Shown: positions 14,062 through 31,776 of the stretch, in pieces
How the letters are laid out: each line of letters starts with the position of its first letter
How positions within the stretch are numbered: position 1 is the stretch's first letter
Assembly: GCA_027045875.1 (NCBI GenBank)
Contig: JALUAG010000107.1
Coordinates: 1-64,000 of the forward strand
DNA length: 64,000 nucleotides
Direction of reading: 5' to 3'
DNA from: Alphaproteobacteria bacterium
GTDB lineage: Bacteria; Pseudomonadota; Alphaproteobacteria; Geminicoccales; Geminicoccaceae
Notes under the pieces: model-generated
What the model was told of the DNA's origin: nothing
Database searches by the model: none
The model's input: only the letters and a program-made list of their open reading frames with translations
Translations under genes and position numbers: made by a program

Positions 14062-14469
14062 TCAGCCGCTCCGGCTGTAGACGATCCTGGGCTCCTCGAC
14101 CCGAAAGAGGGGCTTCGTGGGCTTCTCGGTAGTCAGAAATTCATCGACTTCGGCCGTTCGCGCCGCGACAACGTGCAGGGCGTCCATGGCAGAGAGTCCT
14201 TTAATCCTGGCTAACTCCATTGCGGGTTTCACGAGGGCTCCGATGTCCGTTACGAAAAAGATGACGTTATCGAAAAAGGAGAGGTAGAAATCGGCTTCCT
14301 CGGTTTTCTTGTGGTACTGAGCCTTGGGAACCGTTTCCAGCCAGACCAGATGGCTCGACACGAACTCCCTTCTGTCGTCGTCGAGAAAATGCAAGGCACA
14401 TCGCGCGAGCTCGTGGTTTCCCGTTGCAGCGTCGAGAAGAACGCCCGAGTCGACGTAGGTTCGCAGCAT
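14062..14469 (-). CDS. PIN-domain protein (VapC-like ribonuclease candidate)
   Basis: A 135-residue PIN-fold protein. It shows the acidic metal-binding residues in the expected order: Asp7 in YVDSGVLLDA, Glu45 in LVWLETVPK, and Asp96 in LSAMDALHVVAA, with FLTTEKPTKPLF near the end. PIN proteins of this size are usually toxin ribonucleases that cut tRNA, rRNA or mRNA. It starts five bases after the stop of a small upstream gene and is the last of three tightly linked genes. Local GC and codon use are lower than the neighbours, suggesting transfer. The partner is not a recognisable VapB, so the toxin role is inferred. Confidence 0.75.
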   Translation of the reverse strand: MLRTYVDSGVLLDAATGNHELARCALHFLDDDRREFVSSHLVWLETVPKAQYHKKTEEADFYLSFFDNVIFFVTDIGALVKPAMELARIKGLSAMDALHVVAARTAEVDEFLTTEKPTKPLFRVEEPRIVYSRSG

Positions 14470-14474
14470 GGTGA

Positions 14475-14810
14475 TCAGGTATCGTCCACCGCCCTTCCCC
14501 GCCCGAGGCGGGCGTCGATTTGTTCCCCGTCCAGAGGTGTCGTGCCGGTGGCGAGGAGCGCGCGCCGAAGAGCGCGCAGTCTGGCTCCGAGAGGAGTTCT
14601 CGACGGCTCGTACGCGGGATCCGCCAATTCCTCCCAGTGCGCCATCGTGGCGGCCATCGCCGACGTGGTTTCAGGAAATACGTCCCCGCTCGCTGCTGTC
14701 GAAGCTGCCGTCGAAGGCGACGGTGCGACGCGAAATTGGAACCGCCGAAAGGCGTTCGTATCGGAGCTCCACTCGATTGCCGATCCCGTTCTTTCGCCCG
14801 CTGTCATCAC
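14475..14810 (-). CDS. Small hypothetical protein between TIGR04255-like and PIN genes
   Basis: A 111-residue protein that I do not recognise. It is Ala/Thr/Ser-rich in the middle and has a C-terminal basic helix (LGARLRALRRALLA), with no clear DNA-binding fold. The ATG overlaps the TGA of the upstream gene (ATGATGA), and the PIN gene follows after five bases. Position and size suit an antitoxin or adaptor, but that is inference from arrangement only. The second ATG, one codon later, is an equally possible start. Confidence 0.55.
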   Translation of the reverse strand: MMTAGERTGSAIEWSSDTNAFRRFQFRVAPSPSTAASTAASGDVFPETTSAMAATMAHWEELADPAYEPSRTPLGARLRALRRALLATGTTPLDGEQIDARLGRGRAVDDT

Positions 14811-15553
14811 TGCACCTCCTGCATACCGAGGAGTCCGACGGCCTCTCGGGTCAGGGAGCGGGCGAGGCTCTTTTCGATCCTCGCGTGGGCGCGTGTGAGC
14901 CAGTTGCCGAGTTCTTCCACTCCGACCTTTCCGAGACTTCCGGTCCAGAAATCCAGATCGATCATGAGTGCGCGCGCATCTCCGGTCGCGGTACCTGCCT
15001 GGTAGGTGAGCGTTCCGACCGGCGCGTCGTACGGAATCTCGAATCGCTCGAAGAAAGCGCTCGCATTCGCATCGAAGAATTCGCGGAGTGCCGGAAGCAC
15101 CTTCAACAGTGACGCAGCATCACTACCGTCGAGCTCGATACGGTTGATATACCGAAGGCCTACCCGATCGGTCACGGTGGACGTGAGGAATTCGGCGTGG
15201 AGACCGAAAATGTCCAGTATTTCCTTCAGAAACTCGTTCCATCCGGGATAAGGCTGTAATATGTTGACTGCGAGGAGACTTGGTCCGCTCTGAACGAGGC
15301 GCGTGCCGTCCTCCGACACGAACTGAAGTTTCTCCACCATCGGCGAAGGGGATGGAGAGGAATGTGGTGCCCCCTGTTGGCCGACGACGATGGATGGTGG
15401 GCGCACCTCTTTGACGACCGGATAACGTTTGTCGATCCTTTCGTGTAGCCGGCCCGGTATCGTCCAGTTCCAGCCACTTTCATTGGCGAAACGAAATTCG
15501 CACACCGCTTCCACGAGAGGCGGACGTTCGAACTTCAGTCTAACATCGTTCAT
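14807..15553 (-). CDS. TIGR04255-like protein of unknown function
   Basis: About 248 residues. The opening LKFERPPLVEAVCEFRF, the middle QSGPSLLAVNILQPYPGW and VTDRVGLRYINRIEL are the pattern I associate with the TIGR04255 family, whose function is unknown. No catalytic motif or membrane segment is visible. The start was placed at MNDVRLKFERPP; another ATG 27 bases upstream at 15580 is possible, and neither has a clear ribosome binding site. It is the first gene of a three-gene unit with the small protein and the PIN protein, in a lower-GC patch. Confidence 0.65.
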   Translation of the reverse strand: MNDVRLKFERPPLVEAVCEFRFANESGWNWTIPGRLHERIDKRYPVVKEVRPPSIVVGQQGAPHSSPSPSPMVEKLQFVSEDGTRLVQSGPSLLAVNILQPYPGWNEFLKEILDIFGLHAEFLTSTVTDRVGLRYINRIELDGSDAASLLKVLPALREFFDANASAFFERFEIPYDAPVGTLTYQAGTATGDARALMIDLDFWTGSLGKVGVEELGNWLTRAHARIEKSLARSLTREAVGLLGMQEVQ

Positions 15554-15825
15554 TTCGGTTTGGTCGTGCACTCGGTTCATGGGCGCGTCGGGAGTTTTCT
15601 ACGCCGTGCCCTGACGTAATGCGACCACGTGGTAGTCCTCGATGCAGGTCTCGCCGGCGCGATGACTGGCCGTAGGTACTCGCAGTAAGCCCGATGACTG
15701 ACGACACTAGGGATCCGATCATCCACGGTCAACGTCGCCCGCGCTTCTGTCGAAGCAAGGGACTCGGGCGAGGAAAGTTCGCGTGACGGCCGCGAGCTCA
15801 ACCTCGTTCGACGGTCGATCCTCTG

Positions 15826-28623: not shown

Positions 28624-29768
28624 GCCGCCGGTGGGTCGATCCCGAGCCCTTCGATCCGGCCGCCGGCGAGCCGCCCCCCACGCCCGAGCAGGAGCGCTTC
28701 TACACCGCCTCCCAGTGGCAGCTCGTGTGGTGGCGCTTCCGGCGTCACCGGCTGGCCGTCTTTTCCCTGTGGCTGCTGGCCTTCGCCTACGCCTCGCTGT
28801 TGGTGACCGAGCTGCTGGCCCCCTACGGGAAGGACACCCGCAATCCCGCCTTCATCCTGGCGCCGCCGCAGACCGTTCGCCTGTTCCACGAGGGGCGCTT
28901 CGTCGGACCCTTCGTCTACGGCTACGACATGACCCTCGACATGACGACCCTGAAGCGGGTCTACACCGAGAACCGCGACAAGGTGCAGAAGCTGCGCTTC
29001 TTCTGCCGGGGCGATCCCTACCGCTTCTGGAATCTCTGGCCCGCCGATCTCCATCTCGTCTGTCCCGCCGAGGGCGGCACCCTGTTCCTGATGGGCACCG
29101 ACCGGCTGGGGCGCGATCTCTTCTCCCGTATCCTCTACGGCGCGCGGGTATCGCTCACGGTCGGCATCTTCGGCATCGCCGTGAGCTTCCTCCTCGGGCT
29201 CGTCCTGGGCGGACTGTCCGGCTACTACGGCGGCTGGGTGGACACCCTCGTCCAGCGCACGATCGAGGTCGTCCGCAGCTTTCCCACCATTCCCCTGTGG
29301 CTGTCGCTGTCGGCCGCCATGCCCGTCTGGTGGGATCCGCTCTGGGTCTATTTCGGGATCACCATCATCCTCGGGCTGATCGACTGGACGGGTCTCGCCC
29401 GCGCGGTGCGGTCCAAGATCCTGGCCCTCCGCGAGGAGGACTTCGCCCAGGCGGCGCGGCTCATGGGCGCCGGCCCGGCGCGGGTGATCGGCCGCCATCT
29501 GATCCCCTCCTTCGCGAGCCATCTCATCGCCTCGGCCACCCTCTCCATTCCCTCGATGATCCTGGGCGAGACCGCCCTCTCCTTCCTCGGGCTCGGGGTG
29601 CGGGCGCCGATGACGAGCTGGGGCGTGCTCCTCAACGACGCCCAGAACGTCAACGTGGTGGCTCTCTATCCCTGGCTGATGCTGCCGGTGGTGCCGGTGA
29701 TCGTCGTGGTGCTGGCCTTCAACTTCCTGGGCGACGGGCTGCGCGACGCCGCCGACCCCTACAGCTAG
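28620..29768 (+). CDS. Peptide-type ABC transporter permease (DppC/YejE-like)
   Basis: A 382-residue second permease. The N-terminus has SQWQLVWWRFRRHRLAVFSLW and one span, then a long periplasmic insert of about 120 residues before GTDRLGRDLFSRILYGARVSLTVG. The remaining spans follow, with the EAA loop ALREEDFAQAARLMGAGPARVI. The large insert makes it closer to YejE-like permeases than to plain DppC. The ATG overlaps the first permease stop. No ATPase or binding protein follows; its end overlaps the convergent accessory gene by a few bases. Confidence 0.9.
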   Translation: MSRRWVDPEPFDPAAGEPPPTPEQERFYTASQWQLVWWRFRRHRLAVFSLWLLAFAYASLLVTELLAPYGKDTRNPAFILAPPQTVRLFHEGRFVGPFVYGYDMTLDMTTLKRVYTENRDKVQKLRFFCRGDPYRFWNLWPADLHLVCPAEGGTLFLMGTDRLGRDLFSRILYGARVSLTVGIFGIAVSFLLGLVLGGLSGYYGGWVDTLVQRTIEVVRSFPTIPLWLSLSAAMPVWWDPLWVYFGITIILGLIDWTGLARAVRSKILALREEDFAQAARLMGAGPARVIGRHLIPSFASHLIASATLSIPSMILGETALSFLGLGVRAPMTSWGVLLNDAQNVNVVALYPWLMLPVVPVIVVVLAFNFLGDGLRDAADPYS

Positions 29769-30409
29769 GGCGAGGCGCGCGGTCCTCTCGGGCGCGTCCG
29801 GTCAGGGGGGAACCACTGGGAGAGGCACTGCCGCAAATGCCGGAAGGCAGGATCTTGGCAGCCTGCGAGCGATACCTTGCGAGCGATCCGTCGGTAGATC
29901 GAAGACGACCGCGGTACGTGTTTGTTTTCGAGCAACCGCTCGACGGCTTCCTTCGGATCCCCCGGTTTCGGGGATCCGGGCGGCCACAGGCCGGCATCCT
30001 CGAGGGTTTGCCGGAGCTCGGCGAAATTGTCGTATCCCAGGCCCTTCGCCACATGCGGGGAATCGACGAACAGCCATTGTTCGAGCTCGGGCTCGATGAC
30101 CAGGACGTCGCTTTTGGAGGCCAGGCCGTACCGCTCGAGACGATGGAGCAACGCCACCCGGAGATCCGCGGCGGTTTGGTGCTCGTGCCCCTCCCAGGCG
30201 AAATCCAGGCACAGGAGCAGATACTCGTGTCCGTGCTGCTGGGCTCGCAGCCATTCCGGCCCGTCCTTGTAGCAGCCCGGGTCGCGCTGCGGATGGACAC
30301 GGACATCGAAGTCGATGGAGCGGATCCCAAGCGAATGGCTCCGCTTCAGCAGTTCCTGGAATACCGCCTCCATGTTCTTGTCGGCGGCCAGGACGAGCGG
30401 ATCCTTCAT
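29765..30409 (-). CDS. TOPRIM-like (DUF4276/RloB-type) partner of an AAA ATPase, candidate
   Basis: A 214-residue protein without a firm family assignment. Its layout recalls TOPRIM-like partners of defence ATPases: a hydrophobic strand ending in Glu14 (LVLAADKNMEAVFQ), a second strand with Asp69 (YLLLCLDFAWEG), and VLVIEPELEQWLF at 102-114. The last resembles the E-x-W-L patch of DUF4276/RloB-like proteins. The ATG overlaps the stop of the upstream ATPase (ATGA), so the two form one unit. Local GC is visibly below the surroundings. A nuclease role is inferred from the pairing; a search against TOPRIM, DUF4276 and DUF4435 profiles would decide it. Confidence 0.55.
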   Translation of the reverse strand: MKDPLVLAADKNMEAVFQELLKRSHSLGIRSIDFDVRVHPQRDPGCYKDGPEWLRAQQHGHEYLLLCLDFAWEGHEHQTAADLRVALLHRLERYGLASKSDVLVIEPELEQWLFVDSPHVAKGLGYDNFAELRQTLEDAGLWPPGSPKPGDPKEAVERLLENKHVPRSSSIYRRIARKVSLAGCQDPAFRHLRQCLSQWFPPDRTRPRGPRASP

Positions 30410-31776
30410 CCGAGGAGGCCGCTCGCGAACAAGGTTCCGAGATCGAGCGTCCCGCGCCATTCACGCAGCCGCGGATGCCGGTCCCCCCGCACCACCTGTG
30501 TCGCCCCGGCGGTATTTTTCGCGAAACAGATCAGTTCCGAGGGGCGCGCCGCGGCCAGCAGCACGGGGGAGTGCGTGGCGAGCAGGACCTGGGAGCGATA
30601 AACTGAAGAAAGAGACTGGTAGATGCTCTCGAGCGCGCGGGGATGAAGCCCGTTTTCCGGTTCCTCGATCAGATAGATTCCGTCGGCGGATCCGTAAGCG
30701 AGCAGAGTAAGCGCGAGAAAACGGAGGGTTCCGTCCGACACCGTCCAGGAAGGCGTGTCGAGGGTCCAGGAAGGCGCCTCGCGCTTCGAGCGATAGCGGA
30801 CGACGAGGTACCGGTGCCGGTCCTCTTCCCGCTCCCGCGTGAACAACTCGTCGATGTCGGGGAGGGCTTCGCGGACGTGTTCGATCCACTGGGCCAGCCG
30901 TCGCGGATTCCCCTTTTCGAGCTCGTGGACCACCCAAGGGAGGTTCGACCCGTCGGGCAGATAGGGGCCGCGGCGGGTGGGCGGACTCGGCATCCGCAAC
31001 GCCTCTCCCGACAGGGCGAGCCGATGGATCCGTTCCCGAAGCAGCGATTTGAACCATGTCGCGGCAGGGAACCTTTCCTCGTCGTCGGGCAGGTTGGCGA
31101 GAGCGGATCTGTCGGCCCGGATCCGAAACGGATTCTGCCACTTCGTCCGCTCGGCGTAAAAGGTGATCCGCTCGGGGTCGTCCGTACCCCGCCGGATCAC
31201 CGCCTTCCACCCGTGCGGAGCATGGCGGCGTCCCGGGATGGTGATAGATGCCGACCTTTCCGCCCGCTCCTCGGGGAACAGGTCGGGTTGCTGCGATCGC
31301 ACTTTCTCCGGCGGCTTGAGCCAGAGACTTTCCCGAACTACCCGGAGGCTCGGTTCGACCTCGACCCGCAGGTCGTAGCGGCAGATCCGCCGCTGCCCGC
31401 TTGTACCGTTCTTGGCTCCACCCACCCGATCCTCCGGCAGGACCACCTCGACGGCGAGTTCGAAATGATTTCCCCGCTGCATCCAGACGAGGTGGCGGGC
31501 ATCCGAAGCACGCAGGGGAATGCTGAGCGCGCGGTCGCCCTCAATCGCGGCCTGTAGACCGCCGTTCACGAAATCTCCGAGAAAGGCGACGATGTCGAGA
31601 AGGTTCGATTTGCCGCTGGCGTTGGGACCGACGAGGACGAGAAAGCGTGAAAGATCGACGTCAAGATGACGAAAGCTACGGAAGTGCCGGGCCTGGATCC
31701 TCATCACACTCCCGGGAGGAACGTCCGGATTGTCCCGGGCCGGATCCGTCGCCTTTTCGTCGCGCACGGACGTCAT
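30406..31776 (-). CDS. AAA family ATPase (OLD/AAA15-like, SMC-type nucleotide-binding domain)
   Basis: A 456-residue ABC/SMC-type ATPase. Walker A is GPNASGKS at 50-57 after MRIQARHFRSFRHLDV, the signature-like region is SDGTLRFLALTLLAYG, Walker B is GIYLIEEPENGLHPRA, and the H-loop is VLLATHSPVLLAA. This is the core of the OLD, PARIS (AriA), RloA and Septu-type ATPases used in phage defence and DNA maintenance. It has no fused TOPRIM domain; the next gene may supply it. ATG 31776 has GGGAG seven bases upstream; ATG 31704 also has GGGAG and would start right at the fold. Confidence 0.85.
   Translation of the reverse strand: MTSVRDEKATDPARDNPDVPPGSVMRIQARHFRSFRHLDVDLSRFLVLVGPNASGKSNLLDIVAFLGDFVNGGLQAAIEGDRALSIPLRASDARHLVWMQRGNHFELAVEVVLPEDRVGGAKNGTSGQRRICRYDLRVEVEPSLRVVRESLWLKPPEKVRSQQPDLFPEERAERSASITIPGRRHAPHGWKAVIRRGTDDPERITFYAERTKWQNPFRIRADRSALANLPDDEERFPAATWFKSLLRERIHRLALSGEALRMPSPPTRRGPYLPDGSNLPWVVHELEKGNPRRLAQWIEHVREALPDIDELFTREREEDRHRYLVVRYRSKREAPSWTLDTPSWTVSDGTLRFLALTLLAYGSADGIYLIEEPENGLHPRALESIYQSLSSVYRSQVLLATHSPVLLAAARPSELICFAKNTAGATQVVRGDRHPRLREWRGTLDLGTLFASGLLG

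Follow-up and report, generated by a model that had tools for sequence, protein, structure and literature searches.

The methylation-associated defence system (MADS) is a bacterial anti-virus system of eight genes, MAD1 to MAD8. In TOPRIM domains of the OLD type, metal is bound by an acidic pattern that consists of a glutamate, a DxD motif and a T/E-x-E motif. The OLD nucleases and Gabija GajA carry the ATPase and the TOPRIM region in one protein, whereas PARIS (AriA/AriB, class 4 OLD) has adjacent genes for an ABC ATPase and a TOPRIM protein. The PARIS ATPase is described as keeping its nuclease inactive (PMC12409363). BREX and BREX-related systems are described as having TOPRIM-linked OLD-ABC modules as back-up effectors (PMC12839542), and the idea that DNA-modification defence recruits an ATPase-TOPRIM unit is already published. 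The modules in that work are recruited ones, and its main text does not contain the word MADS; the MAD3-MAD4 pairs described here are mostly free-standing in the loci examined. The open-licence literature yielded no description of a free-standing MAD3-MAD4 pair, although the paper on MADS (Maestri 2024) or the 2020 classification of ABC ATPases might contain one.

The window (the whole stretch of 64,000 nt that was analysed) harbors such a pair on its minus strand. The first gene (30406..31704) encodes a MAD3-type ABC ATPase, SMC/Rad50-head-like and OLD-related, without a TOPRIM domain (NCBIfam, Pfam, AlphaFold). The second (29765..30409) encodes a MAD4-type protein with a predicted OLD-like TOPRIM fold, a putative nuclease effector (NCBIfam, AlphaFold). 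The MAD4 reading frame runs from an ATG at 30409 to a stop at 29765 (214 amino acids), and the ATGA at 30406..30409 on the minus strand combines the stop of MAD3 with the start of MAD4, an arrangement suggestive of translational coupling. MAD3 had been started at an upstream ATG at 31776 (456 amino acids) in the first-pass annotation. The NF047739 model covers residues 24-455 of this longer frame; because the added residues fall outside the match, 31704 is the likelier start. The remaining anatomy in that annotation, i.e., two genes overlapping by ATGA, with lower GC than their flanks and lying between housekeeping and transport genes, was borne out. The pair has 64.8% GC vs. 70.5 and 71.9% in the flanking 5 kb on either side, and its third-position GC (0.76-0.78) ranks fifth and sixth lowest among 50 called genes (own script). 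It adjoins rpe-pgk-tkt on one side (by eye; rpe is also supported by search) and two ABC permease genes on the other, one with matches to permease models of the peptide type. Family E-values of 6.5e-63 and 1.2e-144, together with dN/dS values of 0.38 and 0.18 for the two genes against a congener, exclude chance reading frames. The pair is under purifying selection.

Both proteins belong to named families, and the statement that the partner matches no named type clearly has to be withdrawn: MAD3 passes the curated cut-off of NF047739 (482.7 bits, cut-off 420) and MAD4 that of NF047734 (212.5 bits, cut-off 160). MAD3 also matches Pfam AAA_21 (4e-29), and the best structural matches of its AlphaFold model (pLDDT 92.6) are the heads of SMC, Rad50 and PtuA, in agreement with the proposed OLD-like ATPase core without a nuclease domain. 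The OLD ATPase 6p74 occupies row 16 of the Foldseek matches. AriA and GajA do not appear among the 50 matches listed in the second-look structural alignment, which excludes nothing. All ATPase motifs are present on the minus strand and were compared in an alignment of 64 rows that omits truncated loci and some others. The Walker A motif (GPNASGKS, residues 26-33, 31606..31629) has G26, N28, G31 and K32 invariant in 64/64. The ABC signature-like motif (VSDGTL, residues 322-327, 30724..30741) shares S323 and G325 in all 64, the Walker B region (residues 344-352, 30649..30675) shares E347, E348, P349, E350 and N351, and the H-loop histidine H378 (30571..30573) is equally invariant (64/64).

MAD4 is predicted to adopt a TOPRIM plus helical fold of the OLD type. 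Its AlphaFold model (pLDDT 94.9, pTM 0.88) aligns with the C-terminal regions of OLD proteins (6nk8, 6njv, 6njx, 6njw) at Z 10.3-9.4 over 169-179 residues with an rmsd of 4.2-5.0 Å, BpOLD being the best match (Z 10.3). The hypothetical protein 2p62 scores Z 10.1, and the first unrelated fold Z 7.4; GajA, at Z 6.2, lies inside the range of unrelated folds. The OLD proteins topped the ranking only in the second-look alignment and were absent among the 50 matches that Foldseek listed for MAD4. With Foldseek alone, no PDB entry reached an E-value below 0.001, and a family-profile search of PDB sequences found nothing. The sole phmmer match in the PDB with E<0.01, a respiratory-chain subunit (E 0.0024), was taken as a chance hit. 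The structure prediction thus points to a separate TOPRIM-type partner, as the first-pass annotation had proposed, although the residues that it singled out fared unequally. The lack of a TOPRIM-like fold, which would have counted against the proposed module, is not what the predicted model shows.

Candidate active-site residues were sought in an alignment of 82 MAD4 rows (L014 and the contig-cut L061 left out). Residues were mapped onto BpOLD (E400, T506-x-E508; PMC6755086) from their spacing and the aligned chain ranges rather than from a coordinate superposition. Asp69 (30203..30205, minus strand), named earlier as a TOPRIM-like acidic position, is invariant (82/82) and is the candidate first residue of the DxD motif, whereas Glu14, named with it, is a glutamate in just 49/82. 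In the proposed E-x-E-Q-W-L patch, Glu108, Leu109, Glu110 and Trp112 are all invariant in the 82 relatives; Glu108-Leu-Glu110 (30080..30088, minus strand) is the candidate second-metal motif and may correspond to BpOLD T506-x-E508. The candidate equivalent of the TOPRIM glutamate is Asp10 (30380..30382, minus strand), which is Asp in 79/82 and may correspond to BpOLD E400. At position 71, 50/82 relatives have Glu or Asp and the window copy has Ala. Because Asp replaces Glu at position 10 and Ala occupies position 71, compared with the usual TOPRIM pattern, nuclease activity of MAD4 is uncertain.

The resemblance to PARIS noted at first sight, a split ATPase/TOPRIM pair, holds in the coupled genes, the ATPase motifs and the predicted TOPRIM-type fold, and the two systems likely share a way of working. 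However, MAD4 has no DUF4435 match in Pfam and, as had been suspected by eye, no AriB match in PADLOC, both at E up to 1, and the AriA model (no curated cut-off) scores 106 bits on MAD3, under the 143 bits of HEC-01A. Membership of the partner in PARIS is rejected; MAD3-MAD4 is best read as PARIS-like in its working but not as PARIS. The other families suggested for the partner gave no better result: DUF4276 is insignificant (12.4 bits, E 0.19, gathering score 30.2 bits), and neither RloB nor DUF4435 appears in the Pfam results within E up to 1. The PADLOC system HEC-01 (Hma-embedded candidate) is close in that HEC-01A is the best PADLOC model on MAD3 and some relatives lie within Hma loci. 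It differs in that HEC-01B is marginal on MAD4 (15.2 bits, E 0.0033), and among the window genes no neighbour of the pair was recognised as Hma. With the OLD nucleases (class 2 C-terminal region) and GajA, MAD4 shares the TOPRIM plus helical region, but in those the ATPase and TOPRIM parts form a single protein and in the window they are two genes.

MAD3 and MAD4 are co-inherited as a pair. A MAD3 match lies directly upstream of MAD4 in 80/80 loci (the best 80 of 227 relatives), partial or cut by the contig end in some (e.g., L016, L044, L087). Of 83 distinct related loci, 70 have a four-base overlap of the two genes (ATGA, GTGA or TTGA), a count derived from 71/84 rows, two of which (L010 and L015) represent the same stretch. 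Furthermore, the MAD3 and MAD4 trees agree, with a distance correlation of 0.64 vs. 0.18 for the best of 999 permutations. No third conserved gene accompanies the pair within five places in the pair-only loci. Five non-MADS neighbour families are each common to four loci; two are Rhodothermales neighbourhoods, and the others are an ATPase, a dehydrogenase-like family (by eye) and the type III-like restriction gene.

The window pair resembles the one in MADS in its families, both over the curated cut-offs, in gene order and in the coupled overlap. However, the other six genes are missing: tblastn with the eight proteins of locus L014 matched MAD3 and MAD4 alone in the window (MAD1, 2, 5, 6, 7 and 8 absent), and MAD2 and MAD7 have no match in the whole genome. 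Among the best 80 of 227 relatives, 73 loci contain the pair without MADS and 7 lie in MADS (with MAD2, 5, 6, 7 and 8). Since this selection may favour pair-only loci, a separate draw of 349 genomes was made, in which 8 of the 11 strong places have the pair alone (3 of 14 places, scoring below 100 bits, were dropped). Six of these eight belong to one family (f171), five of them to one genus, so that the count per family is three pair-only vs. two MADS. The draw overlaps the 80-locus set, as G295 is the same contig as L069 by match coordinates. In all three trees the eight MADS copies group together as a single clade, with the window outside it. A MADS-like operon was also seen to lack MAD3-MAD4; the pair is separable both ways.

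Elsewhere, MAD3-MAD4 pairs occur in or beside Hma, BREX (L023, L040), type III-like and C5-methylase restriction-modification systems, at several separate positions of the tree. The minimum numbers of changes are 5 for the 5 Hma tips, 2 for 2 (BREX), 2 for 4 (type III-like), 1 for 2 (C5) and 1 for the 8 MADS tips, with short-flank loci scored as lacking a system. The Hma tips include L041, which has only a DUF499 fragment (four tips without it). The type III-like group includes L056 and L064, whose restriction-type gene resembles that of L047, the L056/L047 model match being below the cut-off. In L016 and L017, MAD4 runs in frame into an Hma methylase, a fusion seen twice. Several DNA-modification defence systems thus appear to have taken up the pair separately. 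Contexts were judged by eye and in part checked with models; by eye, a DNA-modification system was recognised in 7 of 43 pair-only loci with 2.5 kb on both sides, and most pair-only loci have housekeeping neighbours. The 142 immediate neighbours (76 non-MADS loci) match 193 PADLOC families at E 1e-10, vs. 29 for 142 genes at a distance of five or six places (a random 142 of 175, 60 loci), a control that demonstrates an excess close to the pair and nothing further, because overlapping families, not loci, are tallied.

On balance, and with moderate confidence, the pair is a free-standing split-OLD module in which MAD3 would act as sensor and controller and MAD4 as TOPRIM nuclease effector, most likely against phages or invading DNA; for the window pair the role is probably anti-phage. 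MAD3, with its SMC/Rad50-type head, would sense a trigger and control MAD4, presumably within a physical complex. MAD4 may be a metal-dependent nuclease acting on DNA or RNA, so that the trigger would stop the infected cell or lead to degradation of nucleic acid. Beside modification systems the pair is plausibly a back-up effector once those are disabled. A more specific reading, offered tentatively, is that MAD3-MAD4 is an independent guard unit that watches DNA modification or its failure and stands alone in most genomes. It would have been plugged some ten separate times (by the tree) into five kinds of modification defence, sometimes fused to a methylase, and would perhaps be older than MADS, a conjecture since the trees have no true outgroup. 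Stand-alone chromosomal pairs would then guard the methylation already resident in the host, or the state of its genome, and this would account for their long-lasting vertical inheritance outside defence islands.

Defence was expected to be doubtful if the pair occurred mainly outside defence regions and was conserved vertically, and the evidence is divided. The window copy is vertical in its genus, at the same place in congeners, and housekeeping neighbours prevail (by eye); within some lineages neighbours are shared, as in four loci of Rhodothermales and three of Planctomycetota. These features would suit a non-defence factor in genome maintenance or the cell cycle, as proposed for the archaeal OLD-family protein Cran1, described as apparently having no antiviral role (PMC12796447). 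Such a role is nevertheless unlikely: the pair is patchy (5 of 24 genomes examined in the family, 2 of 190 in the class), within one family, distant versions lie at different places in two genera, and pairs are linked or fused to DNA-modification defence. The pair tree also mixes phyla, and low GC and patchy distribution together suggest acquisition. No clean empty site was found around the pair, because in genomes outside the genus different genes flank rpe. There was no match among 50,697 phage records, and a scan of viral contigs, reaching only close relatives, gave six pattern matches, none confirmed.

Less likely still is that the pair works like a toxin-antitoxin unit or interferes with plasmids, with MAD3 restraining MAD4 and plasmids rather than phages as the target. 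The coupling of an effector-like gene with a regulator-like one fits this arrangement, as does the inhibition described for the PARIS ATPase (PMC12409363), but the ATPase-first order, the chromosomal persistence in the genus and the rarity in plasmid records (one match among 72,556, a full MADS) lend it no special support. That the window pair is a remnant of a MADS locus after loss of the six other genes is very improbable and was rejected chiefly on the tree, since the single MADS clade excludes the window; both proteins carry MADS family names, but pair-only loci outnumber MADS among the best 80 of 227, purifying selection acts on the window pair, and neither MAD2 nor MAD7 is matched in the genome.

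The free-standing module has consequences for annotation. The curated cut-offs would label the pair as MADS in a genome without a MADS locus, so that MADS counts by gene name would be too high. Separability also yields a minimal two-gene unit that is testable alone, and makes the role of the ATPase and TOPRIM parts inside multi-gene methylation systems directly testable. In the 349-genome draw, one genome (G342) carries both the pair-only and the MADS form.

The window pair is a real, conserved two-gene unit of ATPase and TOPRIM-like protein, belonging to a catalogued family and present in free-standing form. Both genes lie on the minus strand (ATPase, 30406-31704; partner, 29765-30409) and overlap through a common ATGA (30406-30409), as the first-pass annotation had described. 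For the ATPase, 31704 is a more probable start than 31776: in the longer form the NCBIfam model alignment begins only at residue 24. The lower GC content and the position between housekeeping and transport genes, both claimed earlier, are confirmed: the pair has 64.8% GC vs. 70.5% and 71.9% for the 5 kb on either side, and third-position GC falls below that of the pair genes in only 4 of the 50 called genes of the window. One side is flanked by rpe, pgk and tkt (named by eye, rpe with further support), the other by two ABC permease genes oriented towards the pair, the nearer of which matches peptide-type permease models. Elsewhere in the window, a small cluster of three called genes (14062-15580, GC 0.57-0.66) shows the three lowest third-position GC values and was perhaps acquired; it encodes a member of the TIGR04255 family (114.7 bits vs. 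a cut-off of 30) and contains a gene, PIN-like by eye, that matched no NCBIfam model.

On profile scores, NCBIfam unambiguously assigns the ATPase to MAD3 (482.7 bits vs. a cut-off of 420) and its partner to MAD4 (212.5 bits vs. 160), both from the methylation-associated defence system (MADS), so that the partner does fit a named type, contrary to the earlier impression. Pfam detected AAA_21 in the ATPase and no significant family in MAD4, and DUF4276, named earlier as one family to check for the partner, scored 12.4 bits vs. a gathering score of 30.2. PADLOC ranked the ATPase as HEC-01A (143 bits), then mad3 (109) and AriA (106), and the partner as mad4 (27 bits), with a marginal HEC-01B score (15 bits).

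The MAD3-MAD4 pair, however named, is not MADS. A Piscinibacter gummiphilus plasmid record contains a complete system, MAD1 to MAD8 each scoring above its own cut-off; in searches of the window with these eight proteins MAD3 and MAD4 were the only matches, and the window genome gave no match to MAD2 or MAD7. Among the best 80 of 227 relatives, MAD2, 5, 6, 7, and 8 are carried by 7 loci (MAD6 is shortened in one, L077) and absent from 73, 43 of which have at least 2.5 kb of flank on both sides; a weak 41-bit MAD2 match at L040 falls inside a PglX gene. Because these loci are the best of the 227, a separate draw of 349 genomes of the phylum was made. MAD4 matches occurred at 14 places in 13 genomes; 11 places, including the window, exceed 100 bits, all with MAD3 adjoining, 8 being pair-only (without MADS) and 3 in MADS (one cut by a contig end). 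Since 6 of the 8 pair-only places belong to one family, the count per family is 3 pair-only vs. 2 MADS. MAD7 matched in 6 of the 349 genomes, in 3 above cut-off. The separation works in reverse too: genome G235 carries a MADS-like operon (locus L154, 10910-19409; MAD6-MAD7-MAD2-MAD5-MAD8, with <100 bases between the MAD2 and MAD5 matches) without MAD3-MAD4, and a search of this genome for MAD4 gave no match. Distant MAD7- and MAD6-like genes also occur on a short contig (L155) of another genome without a MAD4 match, G354. A search of open-licence literature found no description of MAD3-MAD4 commonly standing as an independent two-gene unit. The window MAD4 passes the NCBIfam model NF047734 and would thereby receive a MADS protein name in the absence of MADS; the 160-bit cut-off of this model excludes pair-only MAD4s at 129-156 bits (L098-L103, L107).

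The two genes form a unit. A MAD3 match lies directly upstream of MAD4 in all of the best 80 of 227 relatives (partial or contig-cut at some, including L016, L044, and L087), the four-base overlap is present at 70 of 83 distinct loci, and MAD3 and MAD4 distances correlate at 0.64 vs. 0.18 for the best of 999 permutations. The MAD3 structure, predicted from 64 relatives (pLDDT 92.6), has an SMC/Rad50-type ABC head, with SMC, Rad50, and PtuA heads in the top rows. The MAD4 model (82 aligned relatives, mean pLDDT 94.9) appears TOPRIM-like, as had been proposed: in a second-look alignment it matched OLD proteins best, in their C-terminal TOPRIM regions (6nk8, Z 10.3 over 179 residues, rmsd 4.6; 6njv, 9.8; 6njx, 9.6; 6njw, 9.4), together with the hypothetical protein PH0156 (2p62, Z 10.1). 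OLD entry 6p74 followed (Z 7.9), and lumazine synthases were the first unrelated fold (from Z 7.4). This likeness depends on one aligner, because plain Foldseek gave no hit with E under 0.001, and OLD entries were missing from its first 50 rows.

All 64 MAD3s compared share the same residues in Walker A, the signature, Walker B, and the H-loop. Across 82 MAD4s, D43, D69, E108, E110, and W112 do not vary, 79 have Asp at position 10, and Lys occupies positions 148 and 153 in 80 each; position 71, the expected place of the second DxD acid, is Glu/Asp in 50 and Ala in the window copy. The proposed E-x-E patch and Asp69 are thus conserved, while the proposed Glu14 is Glu in only 49. In the OLD nuclease BpOLD, one metal is bound by E400, D455, and D457, and a second by E404, T506, and E508 (PMC6755086). 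By chain range and spacing rather than superposed coordinates, MAD4 D10, D69, and E108-x-E110 may correspond to E400, D455, and T506-x-E508.

The likeliest mode of action is that MAD3, as a sensor ATPase, would control a TOPRIM nuclease, MAD4. This is comparable to PARIS, whose ATPase hexamer, AriA, is described as restraining AriB until a phage trigger binds, whereupon AriB cleaves tRNA; the same source already catalogues ATPase-TOPRIM association for OLD, Gabija, retrons, AbiL, MADS, and PARIS (PMC12409363). Of the suggested two-gene defence module, the ATPase-TOPRIM unit is real and conserved, and a defence role is probable. A role outside defence is a serious alternative: cell-cycle progression involves an OLD protein in an archaeon (PMC12796447), and most pair-only loci have housekeeping surroundings (judged by eye). 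Of the 43 pair-only loci with good flanks, 7 have a recognized DNA-modification system. Inheritance within the genus is vertical, a second species having the pair and flanks in synteny (~83% DNA identity) and a third a contig extending into the pair. Synonymous divergence of the pair genes (0.45 and 0.67) is similar to that of the flanks (0.36 to 0.89), and their dN/dS is 0.38 and 0.18. Within some lineages the loci have neighbours in common (for example four Rhodothermales and three Planctomycetota loci). At wider range the pair is patchy (5 of 24 examined genomes of the family, 2 of 190 of the class), and another genus of the family has a distant version at a different place, beside a C5 methylase. 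Genus-level synteny and wider patchiness fit acquisition followed by long retention.

That BREX-type systems recruit ATPase-TOPRIM units to serve as back-up effectors is already published (PMC12839542). On trees of 82 pairs the MADS copies (n = 8) group in a single clade, with support of 0.86 in the MAD4 tree and 1.0 in both the MAD3 tree and the tree of the two genes joined. Links to Hma require at least 5 changes for 5 tips (4 without the fragmentary L041), and the minimum is 2 changes for 2 tips for BREX, 2 for 4 for type III-like systems and 1 for 2 for C5 methylases. By model, the pair is adjoined by BrxC (883 bits) and PglX (846) at L040, BrxD (642) and BrxH (804) at L023, a type III methylase (439) at L055, HmaC (193) at L051, and a C5 methylase (497) with Vsr (101.6, cut-off 97.85) at L012. 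MAD4 of L016 reads in frame into a complete Hma methylase (HmaB, 1472 bits); that of L017 runs into the same methylase for ~340 aligned residues, and then the frame ends. A C5 methylase adjoins the pair at both L011 (9303-13580) and L012 (8418-12038); the Vsr mismatch endonuclease of L012 is model-confirmed, and a further gene of L011 has no NCBIfam match. Near MAD3-MAD4 at L040, L035, L028, and L050, additional genes for AAA-type ATPases are recognized by eye, some of which have small partners.
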